Assembly (NCBI GenBank): GCA_027450225.1
Contig: DAIDJK010000100.1
Span: forward strand, 1 to 37,059
Length of the DNA stretch: 37,059 bases
DNA from: Bryobacterales bacterium
GTDB lineage: Bacteria; Acidobacteriota; Terriglobia; Bryobacterales; Bryobacteraceae
Reading direction: 5' to 3'
Part shown: one piece after another, positions 1,900 through 29,587 of the stretch
How the letters are laid out: each line of letters starts with the position of its first letter
Numbering within the stretch: the first letter of the stretch is position 1
The notes under the pieces: model-generated
What the model saw: the letters and a program-made list of their open reading frames with translations, nothing else
Database searches by the model: none
What the model was told of the DNA's origin: nothing
Made by a program: the position numbers and the translations under genes

Positions 1900-3612
1900 A
1901 TGAACGGGATGCGATTCACGATCGGGCGCCGGGCGGCGCTGCAGGCCGCGGCGGGCGCGGCGGGACTTGCCGCTTTCGGGCGCGCGGAAGAGCCAAAGAC
2001 GGTTTCAAAGAAACCGGCGTCCGGCATGCCGCCGAATCCCGTGGTGGAAACGGCGGCGGGCAAGGTGCGCGGGTTCAGCAGCGCCGGGGTGGGCGTCTTT
2101 TTGGGCATTCCGTACGGCGCATCGACAACGGGCGCGAATCGATTCATGCCGCCGGTAAAGCCCGAGCCGTGGGCGGGCGTGCGGAACTGTTTGAACTACG
2201 GGCATTCGTGTCCGCAGGCGGGAACGGGCGTGATCGAGAACGATGCGCACGGGCGCAATACGGACGAAGACGCGTTTCTGCTGTATCGCACGGGCGGCTG
2301 GGTGCGCGGCGAAGACTGCCTGCGCGTGAACGTGTGGACGCCCGCGGCGAGCGCTGCCGGACGTGGACGGCCGGTGATGGTGTTCATGCACGGCGGCGGC
2401 TACGTGGGGGGAAGCGGCAACGATCTGCTGTGCTACAACGGCGAAAATCTCGCCCGGCATCATGACGCCGTGGTGGTGACGCACAACCACAGACTGAACC
2501 TGTTCGGTTATCTGAATCTGGCCGATGTGGGCGGCGAGCGCTATGCATCGTCCGCGAATGTGGGGATGCTGGATATCGTCGCGGTGCTCGAGTGGGTGCG
2601 GGACAACATCCGGAACTTCGGCGGAGACCCGGGGAAGGTGATGATCTACGGGCAATCGGGCGGCGGCGGGAAGGTGAGCCACCTGATGGTGATGCCGGAG
2701 GCGAAGGGGCTTTTCCATCGCGCGGTGGTGGAAAGCGGGTCGACGATTCGCTCGGGCGCGGCGGAAGCATCGGCCGAACGGGCGGCCGTGGTGCTGGAGG
2801 AACTCGGAATCTCGAGGGGCGATCTCGACAAACTGCATTCGCTGCCGACCAGCGCGCTGATGCGGGTACAGACGGAAGTGCAGCGCAAAATTGCGCAGGC
2901 CGGGCGATCGTCCGCCGGTGGAGCGATGGCGGCCTGGGGACCGGTGGTGGACGGGAAAGCCATCCCGGCGCATCCGTTCGACCCAGGCGCTCCGGCGGTT
3001 TCGGCGGGCGTACCCATGCTGATCGGGACGTGTCTGAACGAATTCGTGAACGGGACCGACAATCCGGAACGTGAAACGCTTACGAGCGACGAGGCGCTGA
3101 AGCGCGCCACCGCGCAATACGGCGACAAGGCGGCGGAGATCGTGGCGGCGTACAAGCGCGAATACCCGAAAGCATCGCCGTTCGGAATCTGGGCGGCGAT
3201 ATCGGCGTCCGGCATGCGGTTGAACGCGATCACCCAGGCGGAGCGGAAAGCGGCGCAGGGCGGCGCGCCGGCCTACATGTATTTGTACGCCTGGCGGACG
3301 CCGGCGCTGGGCGGCCAGATCGGCACGTTCCATTCGAGCGAGATCACGTTCGCATTCGACAATGCGGCGCTGTGCACGCACTATTCGGCGAACGATCCGG
3401 GCGGCCTGGCGCTCTCGCGGAATATGGGCGAGGCGTGGGCGACGTTCGCGCGAACGGGCAAGCCCGGCCACAGCGGACTGCCGGCGTGGCCCGAGTACAC
3501 GGCCGAAAAACGGGCGACGATGACGTTCAACGCGCCATCGCACGTGAAGGACAACCCCGAAGGCGAAGGGCTTGCTCTGATTCGCGAGGCCGCGATCCGG
3601 CAGCAGGCGTGA
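1900..3612 (+). CDS. Tat-exported type B carboxylesterase
   Basis: An alpha/beta-hydrolase of the carboxylesterase type B (para-nitrobenzyl esterase) family, about 570 residues, a usual length for the family. The N-terminus has a twin-arginine-like signal ([19 protein letters not shown]), so periplasmic location is inferred. The oxyanion-hole motif MHGGGYVGG is followed by the nucleophile elbow YGQSGGG (Ser253). The acid of the triad is probably Glu381 in CLNEF and the base His478 in [12 protein letters not shown] place the start at ATG 1900 because AGGAGAGGA lies 5 bases upstream; the ORF track begins at a TTG 18 bases earlier. It hydrolyses carboxylic esters, but the substrate is unknown. 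Two enolase-superfamily genes precede it, and the 24-base gap suggests the same transcript. Confidence 0.9.
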
Positions 3613-3992
3613 GTCCGGGCGTTTGCCCGATTCTCCTCTGAATACCCGCACAGCCGTTCGCGATCTCCCGCCGAGCGGGCGCATGAACCCTGGCCGAACG
3701 CAGCGCCGGGTGGTGGCGCTCCGCGCGCGTGAAGGCTGGCGCGGAGGCGCGGCAAATACATTGAATCTACTAAATTGATGCGCGAAAATCACTTTCAATT
3801 CCGTGAAATCACGCAGATGGCCTGGTGTGATTGCGGCGCTTGGCGCACAATGCTTTAAACGCTTTCGTTCCGTATTTTTCTGATGATATTTTCCTGAGAA
3901 ATTTCCGAGCTGGGGTTTACATTAATTGTGTAATTTAAATCTCAAGCGATAGGGAAGAAAATCCCTGTCGTTTCCAGCGAGGCCAAAAGAAA
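3613..3992. other. Intergenic region with weak hairpin and AT-rich inverted repeat
   Basis: There is no convincing gene here. Just after the esterase stop is a short hairpin, CGGGC-GTTT-GCCCG (3616-3629), without a T-run, so it is at best a weak terminator. The second half is clearly AT-rich against a GC-rich background. It contains the inverted repeat TTACA-N7-TGTAA (3917-3933), which could be an operator or part of the promoter of the downstream molybdopterin-binding gene. A 26-codon open frame at 3778-3858 encodes a WCDCGAW motif but lacks a ribosome-binding site and is not called. Confidence 0.5.
3917..3933. promoter_or_regulatory. Candidate operator: TTACA-N7-TGTAA inverted repeat
   Basis: A perfect 5-base inverted repeat with a 7-base AT-rich spacer lies about 60 bases upstream of the start codon of the molybdopterin-binding gene. 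It resembles a generic helix-turn-helix dimer site and sits where a promoter would be expected. No matching regulator can be named. Confidence 0.3.
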
Positions 3993-4964
3993 ATGCGTGC
4001 GCAAACGGTTGATATTCAGGCAGGCATGGGTCGCATCCTTTCCTCCCCGATTTTCCGGCCAGGCGGCAAGAAACTACTTGCCAAGGGCCATCTACTCCGC
4101 GAAGAGGACATCCGAATCCTTCAATCCGAAGGGCTGAGCTCCGTCTGGGTAGCGGAACTGGAGGAAGGAGAAATCGCTGAAGACGACGCGGTTTGCGGCG
4201 TCGCGGGTGAAATCGCCTGCGGCTGCTATGAAGCCCAACTCGCTCCCGGCGGACGCGCCAACCTGGTGGCAACGGAAAACTGTTGCGTACTGGTGGATGA
4301 CGATCTTCTTCGTCAGGTGAACTGCACATCGGGTCTGGTGGTAGCGACGTCTCTCAATTTCAGCTTCGCGGTACCCGGCCAGCGAATCGCAACCATCAAG
4401 AGCGCGCCGTTCGCGGTTGGCCGCGACGAATACGACGGTTCTCTGAATATGCTCCGCGAGCGCGGACCGCTGATGCAGGCGCGTCCGGTGCGGCAGGCAT
4501 CCGTAGCGGTGCTGTATTGCGATCCGTTGAACGGAGACCGCGCGCGGACGCTGTTCGAGCCGGTACTGCGCCAGAAGCTGGAGCGGTTCGGGGTGCGGAC
4601 GCACGCGAGCGTAGCGGTCCTGGAAAATGAGGAGCATATTTCGCGGGGATTGCAGCATCTGCTGCGGCTGAAACCGGCGGTGATTCTCGTCGCTTCGACG
4701 ACGGCTCCGGCGGGTCCGGACGACGCGGTGGGCCTTGCGATGGAAAAGATCGGGTGCCAGATCGAGCGCTTTCTGGCGCCGGTGGAACCCGGGAATCTGC
4801 TGTTGATGGGCTATCGGGACGAGACGCCGGTACTTTCGGCGCCGGGATGCTACCGGTCGCTCAAGCTGAACGTGATCGATCTGCTGCTGCCGCCGATGAT
4901 GGCGCGGTATCGGGTGTCGAAGTGGGAAGTCGCGTGCCTTGGGCACGGCGGACTGCTTGCCTGA
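3993..4964 (+). CDS. Molybdopterin-binding-domain protein (MoeA/Mog-like), no nucleotidyltransferase domain
   Basis: A 323-residue protein resembling the N-terminal part of bacterial proteins annotated as molybdopterin-binding/glycosyltransferase family 2. Residues about 10-70 match their opening (GGKKLLAKGHLLREEDI, then AELEEGEIAEDDA). Residues about 165-300 look like the MoaB/Mog/MoeA molybdopterin-binding fold (ASVAVLYCDPL, then ILVASTTAPAGPDDAVGLA, and a final substrate-loop-like stretch around PGNLLLMGY and SAPGCYRS). In the longer relatives a MobA-like cytidylyl- or guanylyltransferase domain follows; here the protein stops after the binding domain. It may therefore act in molybdenum cofactor handling without the transfer step. 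The ATG has GAGG 10 bases upstream. No other molybdenum genes are nearby. Its stop abuts the stop of the convergent HAD gene. Confidence 0.68.
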   Translation: MRAQTVDIQAGMGRILSSPIFRPGGKKLLAKGHLLREEDIRILQSEGLSSVWVAELEEGEIAEDDAVCGVAGEIACGCYEAQLAPGGRANLVATENCCVLVDDDLLRQVNCTSGLVVATSLNFSFAVPGQRIATIKSAPFAVGRDEYDGSLNMLRERGPLMQARPVRQASVAVLYCDPLNGDRARTLFEPVLRQKLERFGVRTHASVAVLENEEHISRGLQHLLRLKPAVILVASTTAPAGPDDAVGLAMEKIGCQIERFLAPVEPGNLLLMGYRDETPVLSAPGCYRSLKLNVIDLLLPPMMARYRVSKWEVACLGHGGLLA

Positions 4965-5573
4965 TCAGGCGGTTTCGATTCCCCGGCGGCGCAGTTCTTC
5001 GCGAATCTGCGCAGCGGACTGGAACTGAACCGCGTCGATCCCCTGCTGCCGCGCGCCGAGCACGTATTCCTCGATATCGTCCGTGAAAAAGCATTCTTCG
5101 GGGCGGCAACCGGCCGCCTCGATTGCTTTCTGGTAAATGAGCGGCGAGGGTTTCATGGCGCCGACCTCATAGGACAATACGAAATCCCGGAAATGGCGCA
5201 AAATCGGATAGTTTTCGCGAATCATTTCAAAGTGAATGGCATTGGTGTTCGACAACAGTACCAGAGGCCGCTGCTGCGCGAGCGCCGCCATCATCGGTTC
5301 GGGTATGAGGGTTTCGGGCAGGAAGATGGAACTCCAGATGTCGCAGAATTCCTCATAGCTGGCCCGCAGATTCAAGTGTCCGCACAGTTGCGAAAAGAAA
5401 TCGCGAGGCTCGACGCCGCCCGATTCGAAGCGCTGGACCAGGCCGGTGGGACGCAGCCGGGCCGGAATTTCGGCGGCCGGAAAATCGCAGAGTTTCTCGA
5501 GCCGGTTGTAACCGCGCTGAAAGTCGAAGGGCACGATGACGCGCCCGAGATCAAAGATAATGACTTTGGTCAT
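4965..5573 (-). CDS. HAD-superfamily hydrolase, YihX-like (HAD-IA)
   Basis: A 202-residue HAD phosphatase-type protein. Motif I is IIFDLGRVIVPFD with Asp8 as likely nucleophile; the second Asp of the usual DxD is replaced by Gly, as in YihX-type DLGNV enzymes. Motif II is LLSNTN, motif III is the Lys in GAMKPSPLIYQ, and motif IV is FFTDDIEEYV. An alpha-helical cap sits between motifs I and II. YihX dephosphorylates alpha-glucose-1-phosphate in E. coli, but the substrate here is only a guess. I prefer the ATG at 5573 because it aligns with the family start; the track starts at an upstream TTG at 5603. The gene converges on the molybdopterin-binding gene, and the two stop codons together form TGATCA. 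Confidence 0.85.
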   Translation of the reverse strand: MTKVIIFDLGRVIVPFDFQRGYNRLEKLCDFPAAEIPARLRPTGLVQRFESGGVEPRDFFSQLCGHLNLRASYEEFCDIWSSIFLPETLIPEPMMAALAQQRPLVLLSNTNAIHFEMIRENYPILRHFRDFVLSYEVGAMKPSPLIYQKAIEAAGCRPEECFFTDDIEEYVLGARQQGIDAVQFQSAAQIREELRRRGIETA

Positions 5574-5649
5574 TTTCGCCTGGCCAGGATTTACCTCGAA
5601 CAAGCTTAGCGGAATGGCGCGGACGGGCCGCTTCAGCGAACCTTCAGCT

Positions 5650-5658
5650 TGCGATAAT
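5650..5658 (+). promoter_or_regulatory. Candidate extended -10 promoter for the YncE-like gene
   Basis: TGC followed by GATAAT gives an extended -10 element (TGn plus a five-of-six match to TATAAT) 22 bases upstream of the ATG at 5681. No good -35 is seen, which fits an extended -10 promoter. The placement implies a short leader. Confidence 0.4.
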
Positions 5659-5680
5659 ATCCTCGCCTAAACCAACGATC

Positions 5681-6682
5681 ATGCGAAATACGCCCAAACT
5701 CTGTTTGCTGGCCGCGACCGCCCTTGCGCTCGCCGCGCCGCCTTCGTACCACGTGATCACGAAAATCAAGATCGGCGGCGCGGGCCGCTGGGATTACGCC
5801 TATGCCGACAGCGCGAACCACCGGCTGTATGTGTCGCACGCCACGCAGACGGAAGTTGTGGACACGGCGTCCGACAAACTGGTGGGAACCATTCCGAATA
5901 CGCCCGGCGTGCACGGAATCGCAGTCGCGAACGACCTCGGAAAGGGGTTCACCAGCAACGGGCAGGCGAACAACGTCACGATCTTCGATTTGAAATCGAT
6001 GAAGCCGACCGGAACCGTGAATACCGGCCAGAATCCGGATGCGATCATCTACGAGCCGGTGACGCACCATGTCTTTACGATGAACGGACGCAGCAGCGAT
6101 TCGACCGCTTTCGATGCGAAGACCGGCGAAGTGGTGACCGCGTCGATTGCGCTTGGCGGCAAGCCGGAGTTCGCGCAGGTGGATGGCAAGGGGCACGTTT
6201 TCGTCAACCTGGAGGACAAAAACGAGATCATTACGATTGACGCGAAGGCGAATACGGTGACGAACCGGTACTCGATTGCGCCGTGCGACAGTCCAAGCGG
6301 CCTCGCGATCGACGGGAAGAAGGCGCGGCTCTATTCGGTGTGCGAGAACAAGCTGATGATCGTGAGCGAGCCGGCGGCGGGCAAGGTGCTGGCGTCGGTC
6401 CCGATCGGCGCGGGCGACGATGGCGTGGCGTTCGACGACGGCTACGCCTTTGCGGCGAACGGGCGCGACGGCACGATCACGATGGTGGGGGAAACGTCGC
6501 CCGGGAAATTCGAGGCGGTGGCGACCATCACGACGCAGACCAGCGCACGCACGATTACCGCCGACCAGAAGGCGCACAAGTTGTACCTGCCGGCCGCGCA
6601 GATCGCGCAGTCCGGAGGGGAAAAGAAGGGCCGGCCGCAGCCGGTTCCCGACAGCTTCGAGATCCTGGTGCTGGGGGGATAA
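5681..6682 (+). CDS. Secreted YncE-like beta-propeller protein
   Basis: A 333-residue protein with a signal peptide (KLCLLAATALALAAPP) followed by repeated beta-propeller blades of the YVTN/YncE type. Recognisable blade phrases include NHRLYVSH, VDTASDKLVGTIP, HGIAVANDLGKGF and KLYLPAAQI. Such proteins are exported and usually act as binding scaffolds; no catalytic site is visible and the ligand is unknown. Two Cys (APCDSPSG and SVCENK) lie in neighbouring blades and could form a disulfide. It is transcribed alone: the HAD gene lies upstream on the opposite strand and the Kdo hydroxylase converges on it with 6 bases between stops. Confidence 0.85.
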   Translation: MRNTPKLCLLAATALALAAPPSYHVITKIKIGGAGRWDYAYADSANHRLYVSHATQTEVVDTASDKLVGTIPNTPGVHGIAVANDLGKGFTSNGQANNVTIFDLKSMKPTGTVNTGQNPDAIIYEPVTHHVFTMNGRSSDSTAFDAKTGEVVTASIALGGKPEFAQVDGKGHVFVNLEDKNEIITIDAKANTVTNRYSIAPCDSPSGLAIDGKKARLYSVCENKLMIVSEPAAGKVLASVPIGAGDDGVAFDDGYAFAANGRDGTITMVGETSPGKFEAVATITTQTSARTITADQKAHKLYLPAAQIAQSGGEKKGRPQPVPDSFEILVLGG

Positions 6683-8359: not shown

Positions 8360-8368
8360 AGCTTCAGG
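8341..8368. other. Hairpin and palindrome at convergent gene ends
   Basis: GGGAAG-ACTG-CTTCCC (8341-8356) is a perfect 6-bp hairpin at the end of the PP2C frame. It is overlapped by a perfect 14-base palindrome, CCTGAAGCTTCAGG (8355-8368), that contains both stop codons of the converging PP2C and Crp/Fnr genes. No T-run follows, so it may be a weak bidirectional terminator or simply RNA 3'-end structure. Confidence 0.4.
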
Positions 8369-9047
8369 CCGCCAGCGGTTCCTGCCGCAGCCATTCCTTG
8401 AGCGCTTCGCGGTGGAGGAGAATGCCCTTCCGTGAATACCGAAGATAGCCCTGGCGGCGGAACTGGTTCATGTAGTGCGTTACGATCTCGCGCGAAGTAC
8501 CGACGTACTGCGAAAGCAATTCGTGCGTAAACGGAATCATCTGCACCGATCCATCTTCGGTCTGGTGGCCGAGACGTTCCGAGAAGCGGATCAAAGCGCG
8601 GGCGAGGCGGCGCGCGATGTTATCGACCGAGAAACTCTCGATGCGGCTGCCAAAATCCATCGAACGCTGCACGAGAAGCTGCAGGAGGGCGATGGCGAGT
8701 TTGGGGCGGCGGGTGGCAATCTCTTCGATTTCCGCCGTCGTCCAGGTCATGACCTTCGTGTTTTCGAGTGCAACGGCGATTTCAGTGCGCTGGGGCAACC
8801 CGAGAAAAGCGGACTCGCCGAAGAACTCGTCGGGCTGGTAGATATCGACCACAACCTGGCGGCCATCGTCCGCCATCCGGCAGACTTTGACCTTGCCATC
8901 AATCACCAGATAAATGCTGGTGGACGGCTGATCCTGACTGTAAATCGTCTGCCCTTTGCGATATTCAAGAATGGTGGAGCATGGAAGATGCGCTAAGGGA
9001 TCCTCCAAGGCCTTTGGTTGCGGTGCAATTGCCGGACTAGTACCCAC
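8364..9047 (-). CDS. Crp/Fnr-family transcriptional regulator
   Basis: A 227-residue regulator with an N-terminal cyclic-nucleotide-binding-type beta-roll (about residues 20-140) and a C-terminal winged helix. The phosphate-binding cassette reads FFGESAFLGLPQRTE, keeping the Gly-Glu and Arg-Thr that bind cAMP in Crp, so a cyclic nucleotide ligand is plausible. No N-terminal Cys cluster is present, so it is not an Fnr-type oxygen sensor. The HTH is LLSQYVGTSREIVTHYMNQF with the SRE recognition-helix start typical of Crp. The GTG start at 9047 is well supported by AGGAGG placed 5 bases upstream. Targets are unknown; the long upstream gap toward the phosphoesterase gene is a possible place for its sites. 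Confidence 0.92.
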   Translation of the reverse strand: MGTSPAIAPQPKALEDPLAHLPCSTILEYRKGQTIYSQDQPSTSIYLVIDGKVKVCRMADDGRQVVVDIYQPDEFFGESAFLGLPQRTEIAVALENTKVMTWTTAEIEEIATRRPKLAIALLQLLVQRSMDFGSRIESFSVDNIARRLARALIRFSERLGHQTEDGSVQMIPFTHELLSQYVGTSREIVTHYMNQFRRQGYLRYSRKGILLHREALKEWLRQEPLAA

Positions 9048-9315: not shown

Positions 9316-11958
9316 ATGTCGAGGCCTCCACTACCGGTAGTAATCCCGTTACTGGCGTTCACTCTTTATGGAGCGGAATATCACGCTCCAGCGGGCCAAC
9401 GGTATGCGGTTTCCGGAATGCGCGCCTCGATTCTCCCCGGGGGCAGGGTGCTGGAACCGGCGGGCGAGCAGATTCTGGTCGGCCCGGGTCCTTTCGGGCT
9501 CGCAGTGAGCGGGCGAGGGTCCATCGCGGTCGCGAATATCGGATATGAGCGATTCGGGGTGACGATCCTCGAGCCGGACAAAAAGGGCTGGCGGCAGCGG
9601 GACGTATGGGCGCGGACGCCGGGCAGCCACGCGCCGGAGCAGGCCGACCCGGACTGGAAGGGCGTTTTTTACGGCATCGCGTTCGCGGGCGAGCATTCGA
9701 TCTGGGTGTGTGAGGGCGACTCCGGCCGGGTAAGGATGGTCGATGCGGATTCCGGCGAAACGCGGAAGGTGGTGGACCTGAACTCGGGCGGCTGGCAACA
9801 CAGCTTCACGACGGACGTCGCCTGGGATGGGACGCGCAAACTGCTGTTCGTGCTCGATCAGGCCAATTTCCGGGTCGCGGTGATCGATGCGCGCCGCGGA
9901 CGCGTGGCCGGCTCGGCGGCGGTAGGGAGAATGCCCTTTTCGATCGCGCTCTCGCCGGATGGCATGACGGCGTATGTCGCCAACGCGGGGGTCTTCCGGT
10001 ATCAGCCGATCCCCGGGGTGACGCGGGAGAACGCGCTTACCAACGGCCTGCCCTTCCCCGCGTTCGGATTTCCGTCGCCGGAGAGCCTGCGGGGGGCGAA
10101 ACGGGCGACGGCGGCGGGAATGGTGGACGCGCCGGCGCTGGGCGATCCGAACACGCGGGAATCGAATTCGCTTTGCGTGCTGGACGTGAAGGACCCGGCG
10201 CATATGGACGTTACGGCGTGGATCCGGACGGGGACGCCGTTCGGTCCGGCTGCCGCCGGGGGAAGCGCGCCCGCGGGAGTGCTCGCGACCGCCGAGCGGG
10301 TCTTCGTTTCGAACGCGCACGACGATTCGATCAGCGTGATCGACGCACACACGAACAAATTGCTGAAGGAACTTTCGCTCGCGCTGCCGGGACTCGAAAA
10401 ACTGCGCGGCATTCTGCCGGCCGGCATGGCGTGGGACCCGGTGACGAAACGGCTTCTGGTGGCCGAGGCGGGCATCAACGCGGTTGCGGTGGTGGATGTG
10501 GACAAGCCAGCGATAGACGGCCTGATCCCAACCGGCTGGTTGCCAACACGCGTAGCCCTGGCGGGCGACCGCGTGTTCGTGACGAATGCGCGCGGCCAGG
10601 GGACGGGCCCGAACATGCGGCGGCCGCTGATGGAACTGGGTGAGACGCCATATCTGCACCGCGGCACGCTCTCCACGTTCGTGATGCCTGCGGACTCCGA
10701 GATGCCAAAACTGACCCAGACCGTATTGGAGGCCGGCGGACTGCTTCCCGACCCGGCGCGAAAGCCTGCCCCGTGGCCTGCCGGGATCAAATACGTGGTG
10801 CTGATCGTGAAAGAAAACCGGACGTTCGATGAAGTATTGGGGGACATAACCCGAGCGGCGAACGGCAAGGTGCAGGCCTTTCCGGATCTGGCGCGGTTCG
10901 CCGGTGAAGACGGCCGCGCCGACGGCCATAACCAGCAGTTCAGCCTGCAGCATGTGCCGGTAACGCCCAATCATCATGCGATCGCGAAACAGTGGGCGTT
11001 CAGCGACAATTTCTATGCCGATTCGGACGTAAGCGTGGACGGACACCACTGGCTGACGGGAGCGTATCCCGACCTGCTGACCGAAAGCGGGCTGCTGGCG
11101 GCATACGGTGGCCAGCGGAAGTTCGAGCTGACGGCGGAATCGCCCGGGCGGCTGCTGTTCGCGGGCTCGGATTCCTCAACGCATCCGGAGGAGCAGCCGG
11201 AAGCGGGCACGCTATGGCATCATCTGGCGCGCCACGGCGTCACGTTCCGCAATTTCGGGGAGGGATTCGAACTGGCGGGCGTGGCGGAGGACAAGGACGA
11301 AGAGCCGACCGGGGCGCGATTCCTGACGAATGTGCCGATGCCCGAACCGCTTTATGAAAACACATCCCGGGATTATCCGGGCTTCAACATGAATATTCCG
11401 GATCAGTATCGCGCGTCGCAGTTCATCGCGGAAATCAGGCGGCTGTATGAGAACGGCGGCAAACCTTTTCCGCGCTTCCTCTATATTCATCTGCCGGACG
11501 ACCATATGGCGCCGCCGAGGCCGGAGGATGGTTATCCCTATGGAGCTTCGTATGTGGAGGACAACGATCTGGCGCTGGGGCGGATTCTGGAGTTCCTCTC
11601 GCATACGCCGTGGTGGCGCGAGATGCAGGTGTTCGTGACCGAAGACGATGCGCAGGGCGGGCTGGATCATGTGGATGCGCATCGTACCGTGCTGCTGGCG
11701 GCGGGACCGTGGGTGAATCGCGATTACTGCTCCCATACGAATACGAGCTTTCCGGGACTGCTGAAGACGATCTTCGGGTTGCTGGGCCTGCCGCCGCTGA
11801 ATCTTTTCGACGCCACCGCGACAGACCTGAGAGATCTGTTCACCAACCAGCCCGACTACACGCCTTATGTGGCAAGAATGCCCGACAGGAAGGTGTTCGA
11901 TCCGGCCACCGTTAAGTTCGGGAAGGGGAAAAGCGTGCAGATGGACCAGCCGTTTTAG
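9316..11958 (+). CDS. YncE-like beta-propeller fused to phosphoesterase (alkaline phosphatase/phospholipase C-like) domain
   Basis: An 880-residue exported protein of two parts. After a short signal peptide, about residues 20-440 form a YVTN/YncE beta-propeller (FGLAVSGRGSIAVANIGY, PFSIALSPDGMTAYVANAG). About residues 490-850 match the phosphoesterase family (PF04185-like) found in bacterial phospholipase C and acid phosphatases: VVLIVKENRTFDEVLGD holds the metal/nucleophile region, followed by NHHAIAKQWAFSDNFYADSD, GHHWLTGAYPDL, LPDDHMAPPRPEDGYP and VTEDDAQGGLDHVDAHR. It probably cleaves phosphate mono- or diesters outside the cytoplasm; the substrate is unknown. The architecture is common in Acidobacteriota as I remember it. 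A small separate YncE-like protein lies 3 kb upstream, but nothing links them functionally. The downstream kinase is on the same strand. Confidence 0.85.
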   Translation: MSRPPLPVVIPLLAFTLYGAEYHAPAGQRYAVSGMRASILPGGRVLEPAGEQILVGPGPFGLAVSGRGSIAVANIGYERFGVTILEPDKKGWRQRDVWARTPGSHAPEQADPDWKGVFYGIAFAGEHSIWVCEGDSGRVRMVDADSGETRKVVDLNSGGWQHSFTTDVAWDGTRKLLFVLDQANFRVAVIDARRGRVAGSAAVGRMPFSIALSPDGMTAYVANAGVFRYQPIPGVTRENALTNGLPFPAFGFPSPESLRGAKRATAAGMVDAPALGDPNTRESNSLCVLDVKDPAHMDVTAWIRTGTPFGPAAAGGSAPAGVLATAERVFVSNAHDDSISVIDAHTNKLLKELSLALPGLEKLRGILPAGMAWDPVTKRLLVAEAGINAVAVVDVDKPAIDGLIPTGWLPTRVALAGDRVFVTNARGQGTGPNMRRPLMELGETPYLHRGTLSTFVMPADSEMPKLTQTVLEAGGLLPDPARKPAPWPAGIKYVVLIVKENRTFDEVLGDITRAANGKVQAFPDLARFAGEDGRADGHNQQFSLQHVPVTPNHHAIAKQWAFSDNFYADSDVSVDGHHWLTGAYPDLLTESGLLAAYGGQRKFELTAESPGRLLFAGSDSSTHPEEQPEAGTLWHHLARHGVTFRNFGEGFELAGVAEDKDEEPTGARFLTNVPMPEPLYENTSRDYPGFNMNIPDQYRASQFIAEIRRLYENGGKPFPRFLYIHLPDDHMAPPRPEDGYPYGASYVEDNDLALGRILEFLSHTPWWREMQVFVTEDDAQGGLDHVDAHRTVLLAAGPWVNRDYCSHTNTSFPGLLKTIFGLLGLPPLNLFDATATDLRDLFTNQPDYTPYVARMPDRKVFDPATVKFGKGKSVQMDQPF

Positions 11959-12098
11959 CTGGCCTCCTCTCAGCACGAAGGGTACGCAGCAATCTGCACA
12001 CGTACAGCCCGTACCACTCAAACGATCGAGTGAATTGCGCCTGCGGCAAAGCACCTGGAAAACAGACGCTGGTGGGACAATTCCAACAAGGCTTGCTT

Positions 12099-14339
12099 AT
12101 GGATCATAACGGCTTCATGCCCCACGGCTATTGCCTGCACTGGGACATTCCACTCATTCTGATCTACGTTATTACCGACGGACTTGTCGCGCTCTCGTAT
12201 TATTCGATCCCGGCTGCGCTGTTTCTGGTCGCGTTCAAGAAACGCCAGACTGTGCCGCTGCAGCCACTTCTGGTTCTGTTCGGACTCTTCATCGCGTTCT
12301 GCGGTGGCGGGCACGCGATCGATATCGTATCGCTCTGGAAGCCGATCTACTGGGTAAAGGGCATCTGGAACATCGGGACGGCGAGCACGTCGATGATCAC
12401 CGCCATTGTGCTGTTCCCAAAGGTGCTCGAATTCGTTCGCATGCCGGAAACAACGGCGCGGCTGGAGCGCGAGAGAGACGAACTGCAGGAAGAGCAGACG
12501 CTGCTTCGAGCCGTGCTCGATTCGACTTTGGAAGGCATTGTCCTTGCCGATGGCGGAGGCAGGACACTGCTTCACAACACGGCTGCATCGCGCATTCTCG
12601 GCGCGGACGCGGGAGTGGCGCCGCGCGTGGACTGGCCCGGACACAAGGCGGTGGATGAGGACGTGGCGCGGCTCCCGAACGGGCGCATCGTGGAACGTTT
12701 CACACGCGAAGTCCCGCGTTATGGGCAGCTTTACGTGCTGCGTGACATCACCGAGCGGCGCGCAGCGGAAGAGCAGCGTGTGCGGCTGGAACGAATCATC
12801 CAGACGATGACGCAGGGATTCGCGATCGTATCCGCGTCCGGCGGCGCGATCATGGCCACCAATCCGAGCTTTGACGAAATGCATGGCCGGCGCGCGGGCG
12901 AGTTGATTGGCCGAAGGTTCGAAACGCTGCTCGACGGATCACGCGAAGAGGCGGCCGTGGCGGCGAAAGAGATTGTTGCGCACGCCATCCAGGAAGGCGG
13001 CTGGGAAGGCGACATCCATTCGCGGCGCGCGGACGGAGCCGCCTTTATCGGCCACGCGCGCATCAATCTGCATGAGGATGGCGAGACGGAACTGCTGAGC
13101 GTGATCGAGGTGGACGTAACCGAGCAGAAGCGCCTCGAAGAAGAAGCGAAGCGCTTCCAGACGAAAATGCTGGAAACCGCGAAACTGGAAAGCGTAGGCG
13201 TGCTGGCGGGCGGGATTGCGCACGACTTCAACAACATCCTGACGGGCATTCTGGGCAGCGCCAGTCTCGTGTACGACCAGCTTTCGCCATCGAGTCCGCT
13301 GCGCGCGCGCGTGAACGACGTGGTGAAGGCGAGCGAGCGCGCCGCTGAACTGACCCGGCAACTGCTGGCGTATGCGGGAAAGGGCAGATTCCTGATCGAG
13401 AACGTGGAAGTGAGCGCGCTGGTACGGGAGATCGCGAGGCTGGTGCGGCTGACCATTCCCAAGAATGTGCAGGTGATGGTTCAACCTTCAAACGCGATCG
13501 AAATCGAAGGCGATCGCGGACAACTGCATCAGCTGATCATGAACCTGATCATCAACGGCGCGGAGGCGATCGGAGACGCGCGGCCGGGACAAGTCACCAT
13601 TACTACGGCGGAGGAGCGCCTGGACGCCGAGAGCATTCGTGCGCTGTTCGGGCACGAACCGCTGGAACCGGGCGACTACGTGGTGATCGAAGTGGCCGAC
13701 GATGGCTCCGGCATGAGCCGGGAGACAATTTCGCATATCTTCGAGCCTTTCTTCACGACCAAGTTCACGGGACGGGGACTCGGGCTTGCGGCGGCTCTGG
13801 GAATCGTGCGGGGACATCGCGGCGGGCTGAAGGTATATAGCGAACTGGGATTGGGAACAACGTTCCGCGTCTATCTGCCGGTTGCCGCTGCGGGCGCGCA
13901 ACATACGGCGCCGCCGCGCGAATCGAGGGCGAACGATCTCAATGGCGCAGGAACGGTACTGATCGTGGACGATGAGGAAGCGGTCCGAAGCACTGCTCGA
14001 AACACGCTTGAATTCTACGGTTATCGCGTGCTCGAAGCAGAAAACGGGAGGCGCGGCGTAGAGTTGTTTTCCGAGAACCGCGGCCGAGTGTCTATGATCC
14101 TACTGGACCTGACTATGCCTGTGATGGGCGGAGAAGAAGCGCTGCGCCGGATTCGCGAAATCGATCCGCGCATTCCGGTTGTGCTGTCGAGCGGATTCAA
14201 CGAAAGCGAAGCGCTGCGGCGATTCGAAACGGCCAGCCTGGCCGGCTTTCTGCAAAAGCCTTACACGTCTTCGAAGCTGGCGGAAAAAGTACGCGACGCG
14301 ATGCCAAGGCCTTCACGCACCGGACCGCAGCCGGTCTGA
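12099..14339 (+). CDS. ETR1-like ethylene-binding-domain hybrid histidine kinase
   Basis: A 746-residue membrane sensor kinase. The first ~110 residues form three helices matching the ethylene-binding domain of plant ETR1: DGLVALSYYSIP carries the Asp and Tyr (27 and 34), and FIAFCGGGHAIDI carries the Ile, Cys68 and His72 that in ETR1 hold Cu(I) and ethylene. Two PAS-like domains follow (about 115-200 and 215-345), then a HisKA with His375 in AGGIAHDFNNIL, an HATPase domain (NLIINGAEAI, ADDGSGM, GRGLGLAAALG) and a C-terminal receiver with Asp670 in LLDLTMP and Lys in LQKPY. ATG 12099 is preferred: AAGG lies upstream and the protein then begins near MPHGYCLHW, as in bacterial relatives; the track begins at a GTG 69 bases earlier. 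The ligand may be ethylene or another small molecule. No output regulator is adjacent. Confidence 0.88.
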   Translation: MDHNGFMPHGYCLHWDIPLILIYVITDGLVALSYYSIPAALFLVAFKKRQTVPLQPLLVLFGLFIAFCGGGHAIDIVSLWKPIYWVKGIWNIGTASTSMITAIVLFPKVLEFVRMPETTARLERERDELQEEQTLLRAVLDSTLEGIVLADGGGRTLLHNTAASRILGADAGVAPRVDWPGHKAVDEDVARLPNGRIVERFTREVPRYGQLYVLRDITERRAAEEQRVRLERIIQTMTQGFAIVSASGGAIMATNPSFDEMHGRRAGELIGRRFETLLDGSREEAAVAAKEIVAHAIQEGGWEGDIHSRRADGAAFIGHARINLHEDGETELLSVIEVDVTEQKRLEEEAKRFQTKMLETAKLESVGVLAGGIAHDFNNILTGILGSASLVYDQLSPSSPLRARVNDVVKASERAAELTRQLLAYAGKGRFLIENVEVSALVREIARLVRLTIPKNVQVMVQPSNAIEIEGDRGQLHQLIMNLIINGAEAIGDARPGQVTITTAEERLDAESIRALFGHEPLEPGDYVVIEVADDGSGMSRETISHIFEPFFTTKFTGRGLGLAAALGIVRGHRGGLKVYSELGLGTTFRVYLPVAAAGAQHTAPPRESRANDLNGAGTVLIVDDEEAVRSTARNTLEFYGYRVLEAENGRRGVELFSENRGRVSMILLDLTMPVMGGEEALRRIREIDPRIPVVLSSGFNESEALRRFETASLAGFLQKPYTSSKLAEKVRDAMPRPSRTGPQPV

Positions 14340-14358
14340 GGCCGCCGGTTTGGAATGG

Positions 14359-17300
14359 CTAATTCGCCAGAACTTCGAAGCTGTCGCCGCCGCAGATGCG
14401 GACGAGTTCGGACTTGAATTCCTTGTCGGGACGCACCTTCGAAGGCACGTCAAGAATAACCGAGAAATCCCTGGAAGATTCAATGCGGAGGCGAACCTGC
14501 GTTTCGCCAGGTTTGCGGTCGAACAGGCTCCGCAGTTCGGAAGCGCGGTCGCCGCCGTTGCGCCCGACGAAGACCTTGATGCTGATAAGGCTGGGCAGAT
14601 TCACGCGTACGACGTCGAGCGGCGTAATCTCCTGAACGGAGACTTTGGTGGGGTTGCCTTCTTCAGGGAGCGCCGTGCCGCGAATGAGAACGGCTTTGTC
14701 CTCTTCGAGCGATGAGGCGAGACGTTCGTATTGCGTGGTAAAGACCATGCCGTCTATGCTGCCGCTGCGGTCTTCGATCTGAAAAGACGCCCAGGGCTTG
14801 CCTTCGCGATTTCGACGCCTCTGAATGCCGCTGATAACGCCGCAGAGCGCCACCTCGGCGCCCTTTTCGAGGCCTTCGAGCCTGCTCGAATCGTGTGTGG
14901 CGACCTCGCAGATCTTGTCCTCGTAGCTATCGAGCGGATGGCCGGTAACGTAAAAGCCGAGCATCTCCTTTTCGCCCTGGAGCTTTTCACGGAGCGTCCA
15001 GTCACTGGCCTTGGGAAGAGTGGGTTCGGGGTGCTCGCCGGCAGCCATGCCGAACAGACCGCCCTGGCCCGAAATAAGGTCGTTCTGCGCGCGCGCGCCT
15101 GCCTCCATGGCGCCATCGAGCGCGAGCAGAAGCTGCGCGCGAGTGCCTTCGAGCGAATCCATGGCGCCCGCGCGCACCAGGCTTTCCATCACCCGGCGAT
15201 TGATGGAACCGAGATCGGCGTGTTCGCAGAAATGATAAATCGACCGGAAGCGGCCGACTTCATTTCGAGCTTTGATGATGGCTTCCACCGCATTCTGGCC
15301 GACGTTCTTGACGGCGCCGAGACCGAAGCGAATGGCGTCGCCCTTGTCGTCACGGACCGGCGTGAAGTTCCACGCGCTGGCGTTCACATCGGGCGGCAGC
15401 ACGCGAATACTCATATCGCGGCATTCGTTGATGTACTTGACTACTTTCGCGACATTGCCGGTTTCCGACGTGAGCAGCGCGGCCATGAAATCGACCGGGT
15501 AATGGGCCTTGAGATAAGCCGTGACGAAGGCGAGATAGGCGTAAGCGGCGGAATGCGACTTATTGAAGCCGTAACCCGCAAACTGTTCCATCAGATCGAA
15601 TATCTTTTCGACCCTCTTCTGCGGGAAGTTGCGCGCAAGCGCTCCTTTGACGAATCGCTCGCGCTGCTTCGCCATTTCCTCCGCCTTCTTCTTGCCCATG
15701 GCGCGGCGGAGCAGGTCCGCGTCGCCGAGCGAATAGCCCGCGATGCGGCTCGAGATCTGCATCACCTGCTCCTGGTAGAGGATCACGCCGTAGGTTTCCT
15801 CGAGCAGTTCGCGAAGCTCGGGCAGGTCGTAAACGATGGCTTTGCGGCCGTGCTTGCGCTCGATGAAGTCGTCGAGCATGCCGCCCTGAATCGGCCCCGG
15901 GCGGTAGAGAGCATTGAGCGCGGTGAGGTCTTCAATGCGGCTCGGCTGGTAGCGGCGAAGAATATCGCGCATTCCGCCGGATTCGAACTGGAAAACTCCG
16001 CTCGTGTACCCCTTGCAGAAGATTTCGTAGGCGGCGGGATCGTCCAGCGGGAGTTCTTCGAGTACGAGCCGCTTCGCGTGGCGCTTCTCGATAAGATTCA
16101 GCGCATCGTCGATCAGCGTAAGGGTGGTGAGACCGAGGAAGTCCATCTTGAGAAGCTGCAGCTTCTCGAGACCGGACATATCGTACTGGGTGACGATTTC
16201 CTCCCGGTTCGTGCGGGAAAGCGGCACGAGACTCTTCAGCGGCTCAGGCGAGATGACAACGCCGGCCGCGTGCACAGATGAATTGCGCGCCAGGCCTTCC
16301 AGACGCAGCGCGACATCGAGCACTTCTTTCACGCGTGGATCCTTGCGGGAAAGTTCGTCAAACCCGGGTTCGGCGGCGATGGCGTCCTTCAGCTTGATAT
16401 TGAGAACGTTCGGCACCAGCTTGGTAATACGATCCACATCGCCGAAGCTCATATCGAGCACGCGGCCCACGTCCTTGATCGCCGCTTTTGCTCCAAGCGT
16501 ATTGAACGTGATGATCTGGGCGACCTGCTCACGCCCATATTTCTCGGTGACGTACTGAATCACTTCGCCGCGGCGGTTCATGCAGAAATCGACGTCGATA
16601 TCCGGCATGCTGACGCGTTCGGGATTGAGGAAGCGCTCGAAGAGCAGGCCGTACTGAAGCGGGTCGATGTCGGTGATGGACATTGCATAGCCGACCAGAC
16701 TTCCGGCGGCCGAACCACGGCCAGGGCCGACAGGGATGCCTTTCGATTTGGCGAAACGGATGAAGTCCCAGACGATGAGGAAATAGCCGGAGAACTTCAT
16801 CTTCTGGATCATCTCGATTTCGCGGTCGAGGCGCTCCACATAATCGGCAAGGTCGTGCTTGAGGTGGCCCGATGCCCTCAGGGCTTCGAGGCGTGGACGC
16901 CGTTTCTCGAAACCCTGACGAGCCACGTAGGCGAAGTAAGAGTCCGTGGTGTGCTCGGCCGGAATATCGAAACGCGGGAAAGGGTCCTTGATCTTGTCGA
17001 GTCTGACTTCGCAGCGCTGCGCGATCTCCCAGGGCCGATTGACGGCGTCTTCGAGTTCGCCGAACAGCGCCATCATTTCATCGCGCGTCTTGAGATAGAA
17101 CTCCGGATGATCCCAGTGCATGCGGTTGGGATCGCTCATGGTCTTGCCCGTCTGGATGCACATCAGGATCTCGTGGGCGCGGGCGTCTTCGCGGCGGAGA
17201 TAGTGGGAGTCGTTGGTGGCGACGAGTGGGATGCCGGTTTCGATCGAAAGCCGGTTTACCTGCGGCGTCAGTCTCTTGTCCTGCTCGAGACCGTGATCCT

Positions 17301-27280: not shown

Positions 27281-29512
27281 TCAGGCTCCGGATTCGGCAA
27301 TGTCGCCTCCGAGCGTAAAGTAAAAAGCCGCGCCCTTCTCCTGCTCGCTCTCGGCCCAGACGCGGCCGCCGTGCCGTCGGATGATCCTCGCCACAGTCGC
27401 GAGACCGATCCCCGTCCCTGGAAATTCCGTGTCCCGGTGGAGGCGCTGGAACGGCGCGAACAGTCGATGTGAGTACGCCGGATCGAAGCCGGCGCCGTTA
27501 TCCCGCACCACCCACGCTGCGCCATCGGCCGCGCGCGCCCGCTCGAACTCGATCGACGCTTCGGCTTTCTTCCCCGTATACTTCCACGCATTGCCCAGCA
27601 GGTTCTCGAGCACGATGCGAATCAGCCTGGCATCGCCGAACGCCACCATCCCGGGCTCGATTCGCACTTCCGCGCTGCGCCCAGGCTCCTGGCGCCGAAG
27701 ATTCTCCACCACTTCCCGAGCAATCGATGTCAGGTCGATCTTCCGCGGTTCGATGGGCTGCCGTCCCACCCGGCTGAGTTGCAGAAGATCTTCGATCAGT
27801 TCGCCCATGCGCTGCGCATTGGCGCGGATCCGGTCGAGGCACCGCACGCCCGCTTCGCTGAGCCGCTGCGCTTCGTCTTCCAGCAGAATGCGGCTGAAGC
27901 CGTCGATCGCCCGCAACGGCGCCCGAAGATCGTGGCTCACCGAGTAGGCGAATGTCTCCAGCTCCTTATTGATATCGGCCAGTTCGCGCGTCCGCACTTC
28001 GACGCGCCGCTCCAGATCGCGATTCAGTTCGGCTATCGTCAACTCAGCCCGCTTGCGGCCGTCAATGTCCTCCGTCGTGCCGTACCAGCGAATGATCTCG
28101 CCCGTGGCGCCCCGCCGCGGAAAAGAGCGGGACCGCATCCAGCGATACGAACCATCCCGCATCCGGATCCGATGCTCCACGTCGAACGCTGTGCCGGATT
28201 CCACTGCCGCGCGCCACGCCGTCTTCGTGCTCGCCTTGTCCTCCGCGTGCAACAGATGGAACCAGCCCACTCCGAGCGATTCCTCCGGCGTGGCGCCGGT
28301 CAGCTCATAAGCCAGTTCGCTGAACGCCTCCACCGCGCCCTGAGCGTCCGCCGTCCATACGATCTGCCCGCTTAATTCGACCGTGAACCGGTAACGTTCT
28401 TCGCTCTCCCGCAGTTCCAGCTCGGCGGCGCGCCGCGCCGTCACGTCTCTGTTGCTCTCCACCACCACCCTGCGGCCGGCAAGTTCCATCACGCGCATGC
28501 GGCTCTCCACCGTCAACAGTTCGCCGCTTTTCGTGGTGTGCCGCAGTTCGCCCCGCCATTCGCCCGTCTCCGCCAGGTGCGCGTCAAACTGGTCCTGCGG
28601 CAACGGAAGCACGCTCTTCAGCAGATCGTGCGACCGGCTTCCCATCGCTTCCTCTCTCCGATATCCGTAGATTTTTTCCGCCTTCGGATTCCAGTAGATG
28701 ATTTCGCCGCCTGGAGACCACGCGAAAATCGGTTCGAGGGCATTGTCGAGCAGCGCCGCCCGAAACGCCAGATCGATCTCCGCAAATTTGCGGTTCGTCA
28801 TGTCGATCACCAGCGCGATCACGCCTCGCACCCGGCCATTCGCATCGAAGTGCGGCTGATAATGGACTTCGAAGTACCGCTCACCCGCCGGATAGAGCGC
28901 GTGCGCTTCGGTACGGCACGGCGTTCCCGCCAGTGCTCGATCGAGGCACGGCCTCAGCTGCTCCCAGTAATCACGGCCGAAACGCTCCGTAAGAACGTCC
29001 TGGGCGCGCAAGCCAATCATCCGCTCCACGTCCATGCCGAACCACGACGCATACGTCTCGTTCACCTGCGCGTAACGTCCGTCCGTATCCAGATACGAAA
29101 CCAGCGCAGGTAACCGGTCCGTGATCAGTTTCAATTCGGCCGCGCTGTGCCCCAGCGCCTGTTCGGCGGCGCGTTCGGCGGTGATGTCCTGCCCCGCGCC
29201 GTAAATCCGTTCCGGCGTGCATTCGAGCACCCATGAAATCAGCCGCCATTCGCCGGAGCGCGTCGCCCAGCGGTTCTCAATCGCAAAGGGCAGTCCAATC
29301 GCGCTCGTGCGCAGCGCCGTCTCGGTTTCGTCGCGGTCGTCCGGGTAAACAATTTCGCCGATGCGGCGCCCGGCCAGTTCGGATTCCGAAAATCCGAGCA
29401 GCGCTTCCAGTTCCCGGTTGACGGCAAGAATCCCCTGCTCCCGGGAAGCCACGAACATCACTTCGCGAGACAGTCCACAAAGGTTCTTGAGATCTTCTTC
29501 GAGAATGGCCAT
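27281..29512 (-). CDS. Multi-PAS soluble sensor histidine kinase
   Basis: A 743-residue kinase with no clear membrane helix, so probably cytosolic. Four PAS-type modules follow one another: about 15-120 (MFVASREQGILAVNRE, YPDDRDETE), 130-250 (LPALVSYLDTDGRYAQVNE), 260-375 (PIFAWSPGGEIIYWNPKAEK) and 385-500 (QIVWTADAQGAVEAFSELAY). A HisKA domain with His527 in SVSHDLRAPLRAI and an HATPase (VLENLLGNAWKYT, DNGAGFDPAYSHRLF, GTGIGLATVARIIRRHGG) complete it. The kinase part is of the phytochrome-like subfamily. The signal is unknown and no cognate response regulator is adjacent. The start is taken as ATG 29512 (MAILEEDLKNL), because the track's upstream extension is arginine-rich and unlike a PAS start, but no good ribosome site is seen. 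It lies downstream of priA on the same strand. Confidence 0.9.
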   Translation of the reverse strand: MAILEEDLKNLCGLSREVMFVASREQGILAVNRELEALLGFSESELAGRRIGEIVYPDDRDETETALRTSAIGLPFAIENRWATRSGEWRLISWVLECTPERIYGAGQDITAERAAEQALGHSAAELKLITDRLPALVSYLDTDGRYAQVNETYASWFGMDVERMIGLRAQDVLTERFGRDYWEQLRPCLDRALAGTPCRTEAHALYPAGERYFEVHYQPHFDANGRVRGVIALVIDMTNRKFAEIDLAFRAALLDNALEPIFAWSPGGEIIYWNPKAEKIYGYRREEAMGSRSHDLLKSVLPLPQDQFDAHLAETGEWRGELRHTTKSGELLTVESRMRVMELAGRRVVVESNRDVTARRAAELELRESEERYRFTVELSGQIVWTADAQGAVEAFSELAYELTGATPEESLGVGWFHLLHAEDKASTKTAWRAAVESGTAFDVEHRIRMRDGSYRWMRSRSFPRRGATGEIIRWYGTTEDIDGRKRAELTIAELNRDLERRVEVRTRELADINKELETFAYSVSHDLRAPLRAIDGFSRILLEDEAQRLSEAGVRCLDRIRANAQRMGELIEDLLQLSRVGRQPIEPRKIDLTSIAREVVENLRRQEPGRSAEVRIEPGMVAFGDARLIRIVLENLLGNAWKYTGKKAEASIEFERARAADGAAWVVRDNGAGFDPAYSHRLFAPFQRLHRDTEFPGTGIGLATVARIIRRHGGRVWAESEQEKGAAFYFTLGGDIAESGA

Positions 29513-29587
29513 TTTCAATTGCGCCCCCACCGGTGGGCAGGTGCGATGCCATTCCGCCCGCACCGATTATCTCCCCGCGCCGCCCCG

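Follow-up and report, generated by a model that had tools for sequence, protein, structure and literature searches.

The locus described here raises the question of whether a bacterial hybrid kinase with a plant-type ethylene-receptor domain has kept the copper site of that domain, and what a displaced lysine in its third helix could mean for the ligand it senses. Direct proof of ethylene sensing in bacteria is available for very few species, and the role assigned to the Asp25-Lys91 pair of Arabidopsis ETR1 has so far been based on modelling and a few mutants. We analyzed a stretch of 37,059 nucleotides (the window), which makes up a complete contig of a draft genome of 4.7 Mb.

A hybrid kinase with an ETR1-type sensor domain

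The kinase and its domains are arranged as follows.

12099..14339, + strand: ETR1-type hybrid sensor histidine kinase, 746 aa (open reading frame; Pfam ETR1_N, PAS_8, PAS_9, HisKA, HATPase_c, Response_reg)
12153..12437, + strand: ETR1_N three-helix membrane sensor domain, residues 19-113 (PF25487, 86.7 bits, cut-off 27)
12501..13130, + strand: two PAS domains, about residues 135-344 (PF13188 on residues 135-179, PF13426 on residues 240-342)
13203..13886, + strand: kinase core of HisKA and HATPase_c, residues 369-596 (Pfam; HDFNN phospho-acceptor motif, N-box and glycine boxes intact)
13956..14294, + strand: C-terminal receiver, residues 620-732, with the DD, LLD and KP residues (PF00072, 77.6 bits)

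The frame opens with an ATG at 12099, a start supported by the N-termini of the relatives L012 and L108, which align from the first Met through the FMPHG motif. The domains follow one another in the order given for the frame, each over its Pfam cut-off, which bears out the layout of two PAS domains, HisKA, HATPase and receiver behind the sensor domain that had been proposed from the letters alone. The features of a hybrid histidine kinase are all in place, namely the phospho-acceptor His of HisKA, the N and G boxes of HATPase_c and the phospho-acceptor Asp of the receiver; motif inspection of the latter also found its acidic pocket and Lys. A scan of 11900-14500 for promoters and terminators found none.

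The profile search identified residues 19-113 as an ethylene-receptor-type domain (E 1.4e-24) at three times the curated cut-off. Searched by profile across the contigs of the source genome, 12153-12437 scored 91.5 bits and was the sole ETR1_N match. Three long helices (17-46, 54-77 and 81-113) appear in a low-confidence AlphaFold model of the sensor domain, built from a two-row alignment with a mean pLDDT of 58.2, from which no distances were read; in the hydropathy profile, helices 1 and 2 stand out clearly and helix 3 only weakly. Neither the domain by itself nor a 26-row profile matched any solved structure up to E = 10.

Predicted copper- and ethylene-binding residues

The ETR1 residues needed for ethylene binding are reportedly D25, Y32, I35, P36, I62, C65 and H69, as found by Wang et al. 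in 2006. We aligned the sensor domain with Arabidopsis ETR1, in letters that we take to be its sequence, with the homologue of Azospirillum brasilense AzoEtr1 (L038) and with more than 100 other domains. All seven residues have a counterpart in the kinase (D27, Y34, I37, P38, I65, C68 and H72), at these positions:

12177..12179, + strand: Asp27, equivalent to ETR1 Asp25 (alignment)
12198..12212, + strand: Tyr34 and Ile37-Pro38, equivalent to ETR1 Tyr32, Ile35 and Pro36 (alignment)
12291..12314, + strand: Ile65, Cys68 and His72, equivalent to ETR1 Ile62, Cys65 and His69, with Cys and His as the copper ligands (alignment)

Seven residues are needed for ethylene binding and all kept in AzoEtr1 (PMC11819568), and the copper site of ETR1 has been located at Asp25, Cys65 and His69 (PMC12643061). 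The motif D-x6-Y-x2-I-P ... I-x2-C-x3-H, which spans residues 27-72, never arose when the 130 N-terminal residues were shuffled 20,000 times. The sequence-only reading had named a mismatch of Cys and His with ETR1 as one outcome that would speak against it; at the level of sequence, Cys68 and His72 match C65 and H69 without ambiguity, so this objection does not arise. Its listing of the Asp, Tyr, Pro, Ile, Cys and His of the ETR1 site was likewise correct. The broader statement that every critical ETR1 residue is kept is true of the seven binding residues and fails at the conserved lysine of helix 3, K91, a functionally discussed position absent from that listing, where this kinase has Asn. 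The kinase is thus a member of the ETR1_N family with an intact predicted copper/ethylene site.

A lysine displaced by one helical turn

In the alignment, the conserved lysine of helix 3, which lies within IKALTA or KVLTA, corresponds to ETR1 K91. The primary paper on its bridge to the aspartate is said to be that of Azhar et al. (2023) in PNAS. The conserved transmembrane aspartate sets ethylene affinity, its exchange for Asn weakening binding about 100-fold, and Asp25 has been modelled in a salt bridge with the conserved lysine, a bridge suggested to link binding with signalling (PMC13012798). In the kinase the arrangement differs:

12357..12371, + strand: Lys87 to Asn91, the helix-3 lysine moved by one turn, where the canonical family has Lys at the position of Asn91 (alignment; K87 with N91 in 3 of 112 domains, all in one clade)

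The segment reads YWVKGIWNIGTA, compared with the usual YWLSGGIKALTA. Since both are of equal length and anchored on either side by YW..G and TA..S, Asn falls exactly at the position of the Lys, and the Lys of the kinase lies four residues earlier. Asp27 is retained although K91 has become Asn.

We surveyed the lysine in 112 ETR1_N domains that keep both C65 and H69. In 101 of them, Lys or Arg occupies position 91. K87 combined with N91 is confined to the window kinase, L012 (the same locus as L048, in genome G455) and L108 (in G663), and none of the other 109 domains has Lys at position 87. Loss of Asp25 and loss of Lys91 co-occur above expectation (96/7/5/4 over the 112 domains, Fisher p 0.005, uncorrected for relatedness), which fits the two residues acting as a functional pair. 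The AlphaFold model is too weak to place Lys87 beside Asp27, and position 87 may simply face the surface of the domain, which would count against a pairing of the two.

Two domains from the same class as the window genome, L024 and L031, carry D25N and K91N together with the Cys/His pair, a natural double loss. On the Acaryochloris plasmid pMB01, the ETR1_N domain L039 carries Gln in place of K91, with Gly preceding the copper His, and the annotation divides its kinase among several genes.

A small clade with a remodelled second shell

In a tree built without the trait columns 85-93 and 25, the window kinase, L012 and L108 form one clade (SH-aLRT 99) on a stem of 0.93 changes per column. Their sensor domains are 66% (L012/L048) and 59% (L108) identical to that of the window kinase, the three proteins have the same domain order over their full length, and all seven binding residues are intact in both relatives. 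Further changes, given in ETR1 numbering, set the clade apart: S24T adjoins D25, T68G adjoins H69, and A90W and L93G lie around position 91. All four are fixed in the three members and rare elsewhere. A further search of the order of G455 found the K87/N91 type in two of 256 genomes besides the window, and one of its carriers, G663, has both types, a canonical copy (L116) and the variant L108.

The window kinase is therefore placed in a rare variant subfamily whose predicted copper site has a remodelled second shell, a subfamily unremarked in the literature as far as we searched it. Changes lying next to the copper ligands could alter the ligand. It is possible, if somewhat unlikely, that the clade amounts to a distinct class of ETR1-type sensor, one whose copper site has re-formed its Asp-Lys pair at a distance of one helical turn, with Thr and Gly in place of S24 and T68 beside the Asp and the His, and which thereby has a different ligand or affinity range. 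If true, it would represent a natural rearrangement separating copper binding, ligand affinity and signal coupling.

Distribution of the sensor domain

ETR1_N was found in 10 of 61 relatives of the source genome and in 18 of 396 genomes across its phylum. In the order of G455, the nearest relative, 49 of the 249 sampled genomes have it, as do 39 of 241 sampled from the phylum of G456, labelled Bdellovibrionia. ETR1-type sensors are common in both samples, with a share of about 20% in the former, so the question reaches beyond one bacterium. A scan of viral contigs found no relative.

A Pfam ETR1_N match alone does not equal an ethylene site, as illustrated by L009 (G039:C28:4176-4460), which scores over the cut-off with Ala and Phe in the places of the copper ligands Cys and His. 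Two genomes of one family, G262 (L017, L032, L035, L036) and G419 (L021, L031, L034, L037), each hold a set of four ETR1_N domains that ranges from canonical to highly degenerate, which suggests expansion and divergence of the domain. The single-sequence genome scan that yielded L012 also yielded L013, which we rejected as a chance match: it lies on another contig than the real ETR1_N copy of that genome (L047), and no listed + strand open reading frame of at least 200 aa covers it.

Gene neighbourhood

Two genes lie upstream of the kinase.

9316..11958, + strand: beta-propeller/phosphoesterase gene of secreted type, immediately upstream of the kinase (PF04185; 57% identity to L012:3323-5998)
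8364..9047, - strand: Crp-family regulator, divergent from the phosphoesterase gene (cNMP_binding and HTH_Crp_2; 83% identity to the L012 regulator)

The order regulator, phosphoesterase, kinase recurs at L012, where 2449-6001 holds the first two genes and the phosphoesterase and kinase frames overlap; the kinases of the two loci are 58% identical. Across the family, the Crp-family regulator (81-84% identity) and the phosphoesterase are conserved whether or not the kinase is present. In L168 and L170 both genes are found with no kinase match in the stretch available, as if the kinase had been added to an older regulator-phosphoesterase pair. The phosphoesterase is widespread (31 of 61 relatives), and none of ten phosphoesterase loci from other genomes has a kinase match, several of these stretches ending close to the gene. 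The pair shared with L012 is thus weak evidence for a functional link between kinase and phosphoesterase.

The contig also carries recA, priA, secD, secF, tgt and dnaE. Between recA and priA lies a second PAS-rich histidine kinase (window 27281-29563, - strand), with several PAS domains, HisKA and HATPase_c and no ETR1_N.

A possible mechanism and its alternatives

Taken together, the sequence data lead us to propose, at about even confidence, that the kinase uses Cu(I) held in the membrane to sense ethylene or a related small ligand, signals through a hybrid-kinase phosphorelay and has Lys87 in place of Lys91 in the pairing. Cys68, His72 and Asp27 would hold Cu(I) within the membrane, and ethylene, as the most likely candidate, or another small pi-ligand would bind to the copper. 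The resulting conformational change could pass from helix 3 through the two PAS domains to the kinase, and phosphate could then move from His375 to the fused receiver, on to one of the HPt proteins of the genome and finally to a regulator. In the three-member clade, Lys87 would pair with Asp27 in place of Lys91, the site being retuned and not lost. Besides three proteins with an HPt domain, the source genome encodes a copper-type P-ATPase (619.6 bits, cut-off 397); next to the kinase gene we identified no response regulator dedicated to it.

The retention of all seven binding residues favours ethylene, but an intact copper site could also serve another physiological ligand, and the remodelled second shell (T68G, S24T, W90 and N91) would suit CO, acetylene, a larger alkene, or the copper or redox state itself. 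The substitutions beside the copper residues, fixed within the clade and seldom found outside it, as well as its long stem, point in this direction, and the presence of both L116 and L108 in G663 is consistent with divided functions; we nevertheless regard a ligand other than ethylene as unlikely. Less probable again is that loss of the K91 bridge simply left a low-affinity or signalling-biased ethylene receptor with Lys87 as an incidental feature. In favour of this reading, ETR1 with the D-to-N change still works as a receptor despite its lowered affinity, the Asp-Lys bridge has been suggested to convey binding to signalling (PMC13012798), and L024, L031 and L131 do without both Asp and Lys while keeping Cys and His. 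An incidental lysine, however, would hardly be expected to stay invariant in three proteins whose domains have drifted to 59-66% identity with the window kinase, nor to be absent at position 87 from every other family member.

A decayed sensor domain, kept as a mere membrane anchor for a PAS-regulated kinase, has a precedent in the family, given that L009 has preserved the fold and lost Cys and His; the seven binding residues kept in three distant homologues make such decay very improbable here. A clade that keeps Asp and the copper ligands and has its Lys moved by one turn offers a ready natural experiment on how binding is coupled to signalling.

Comparison with known receptors

Bacterial ETR1-type receptors are already known as a kind, and the idea as such has precedents. 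Ethylene receptors have been demonstrated in Synechocystis (SynEtr1) and Azospirillum (AzoEtr1), in agreement with the earlier remark that similar domains occur in cyanobacteria and other bacteria; the accompanying remark on how little the ligands outside cyanobacteria have been studied still largely holds, but has been overtaken by the 2025 report that AzoEtr1 of A. brasilense binds ethylene directly (PMC11819568).

The kinases of Terriglobia bacterium GL140_3 (L012) and of G663 (L108), true members of the clade, have the layout and the K87/N91 signature of the window kinase; L108 differs in having no phosphoesterase neighbour and a CrtC-type lipocalin gene upstream instead. The AzoEtr1 homologue L038 similarly combines a bacterial ETR1_N domain and the seven binding residues with PAS and kinase domains, but its domain is only 36% identical, has Lys at the K91 position and is followed by one PAS domain, and in place of a fused receiver there is a separate downstream response regulator. 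SynEtr1, which we liken to the window kinase from its published description, is an ethylene receptor signalling through a histidine kinase and phosphorelay, and differs in being a light sensor too (PMC11819568).

In bacterial members the N-terminal motif FMPHGxC (window 12099-12134) is near-invariant, with P, H, G and C each at 90% or more, and the His and Cys in it, immediately ahead of helix 1, could form an extra metal or disulfide site. Arabidopsis ETR1 does not have this N-terminus. It shares with the window kinase the three-helix Cu(I)/ethylene-type domain, the seven binding residues and the union of kinase and receiver in one protein, whereas its domain is 28% identical, has three extra residues between helices 2 and 3, and carries K91. 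Finally, ETR1 carries a GAF domain where the window kinase has PAS (PMC6586836).
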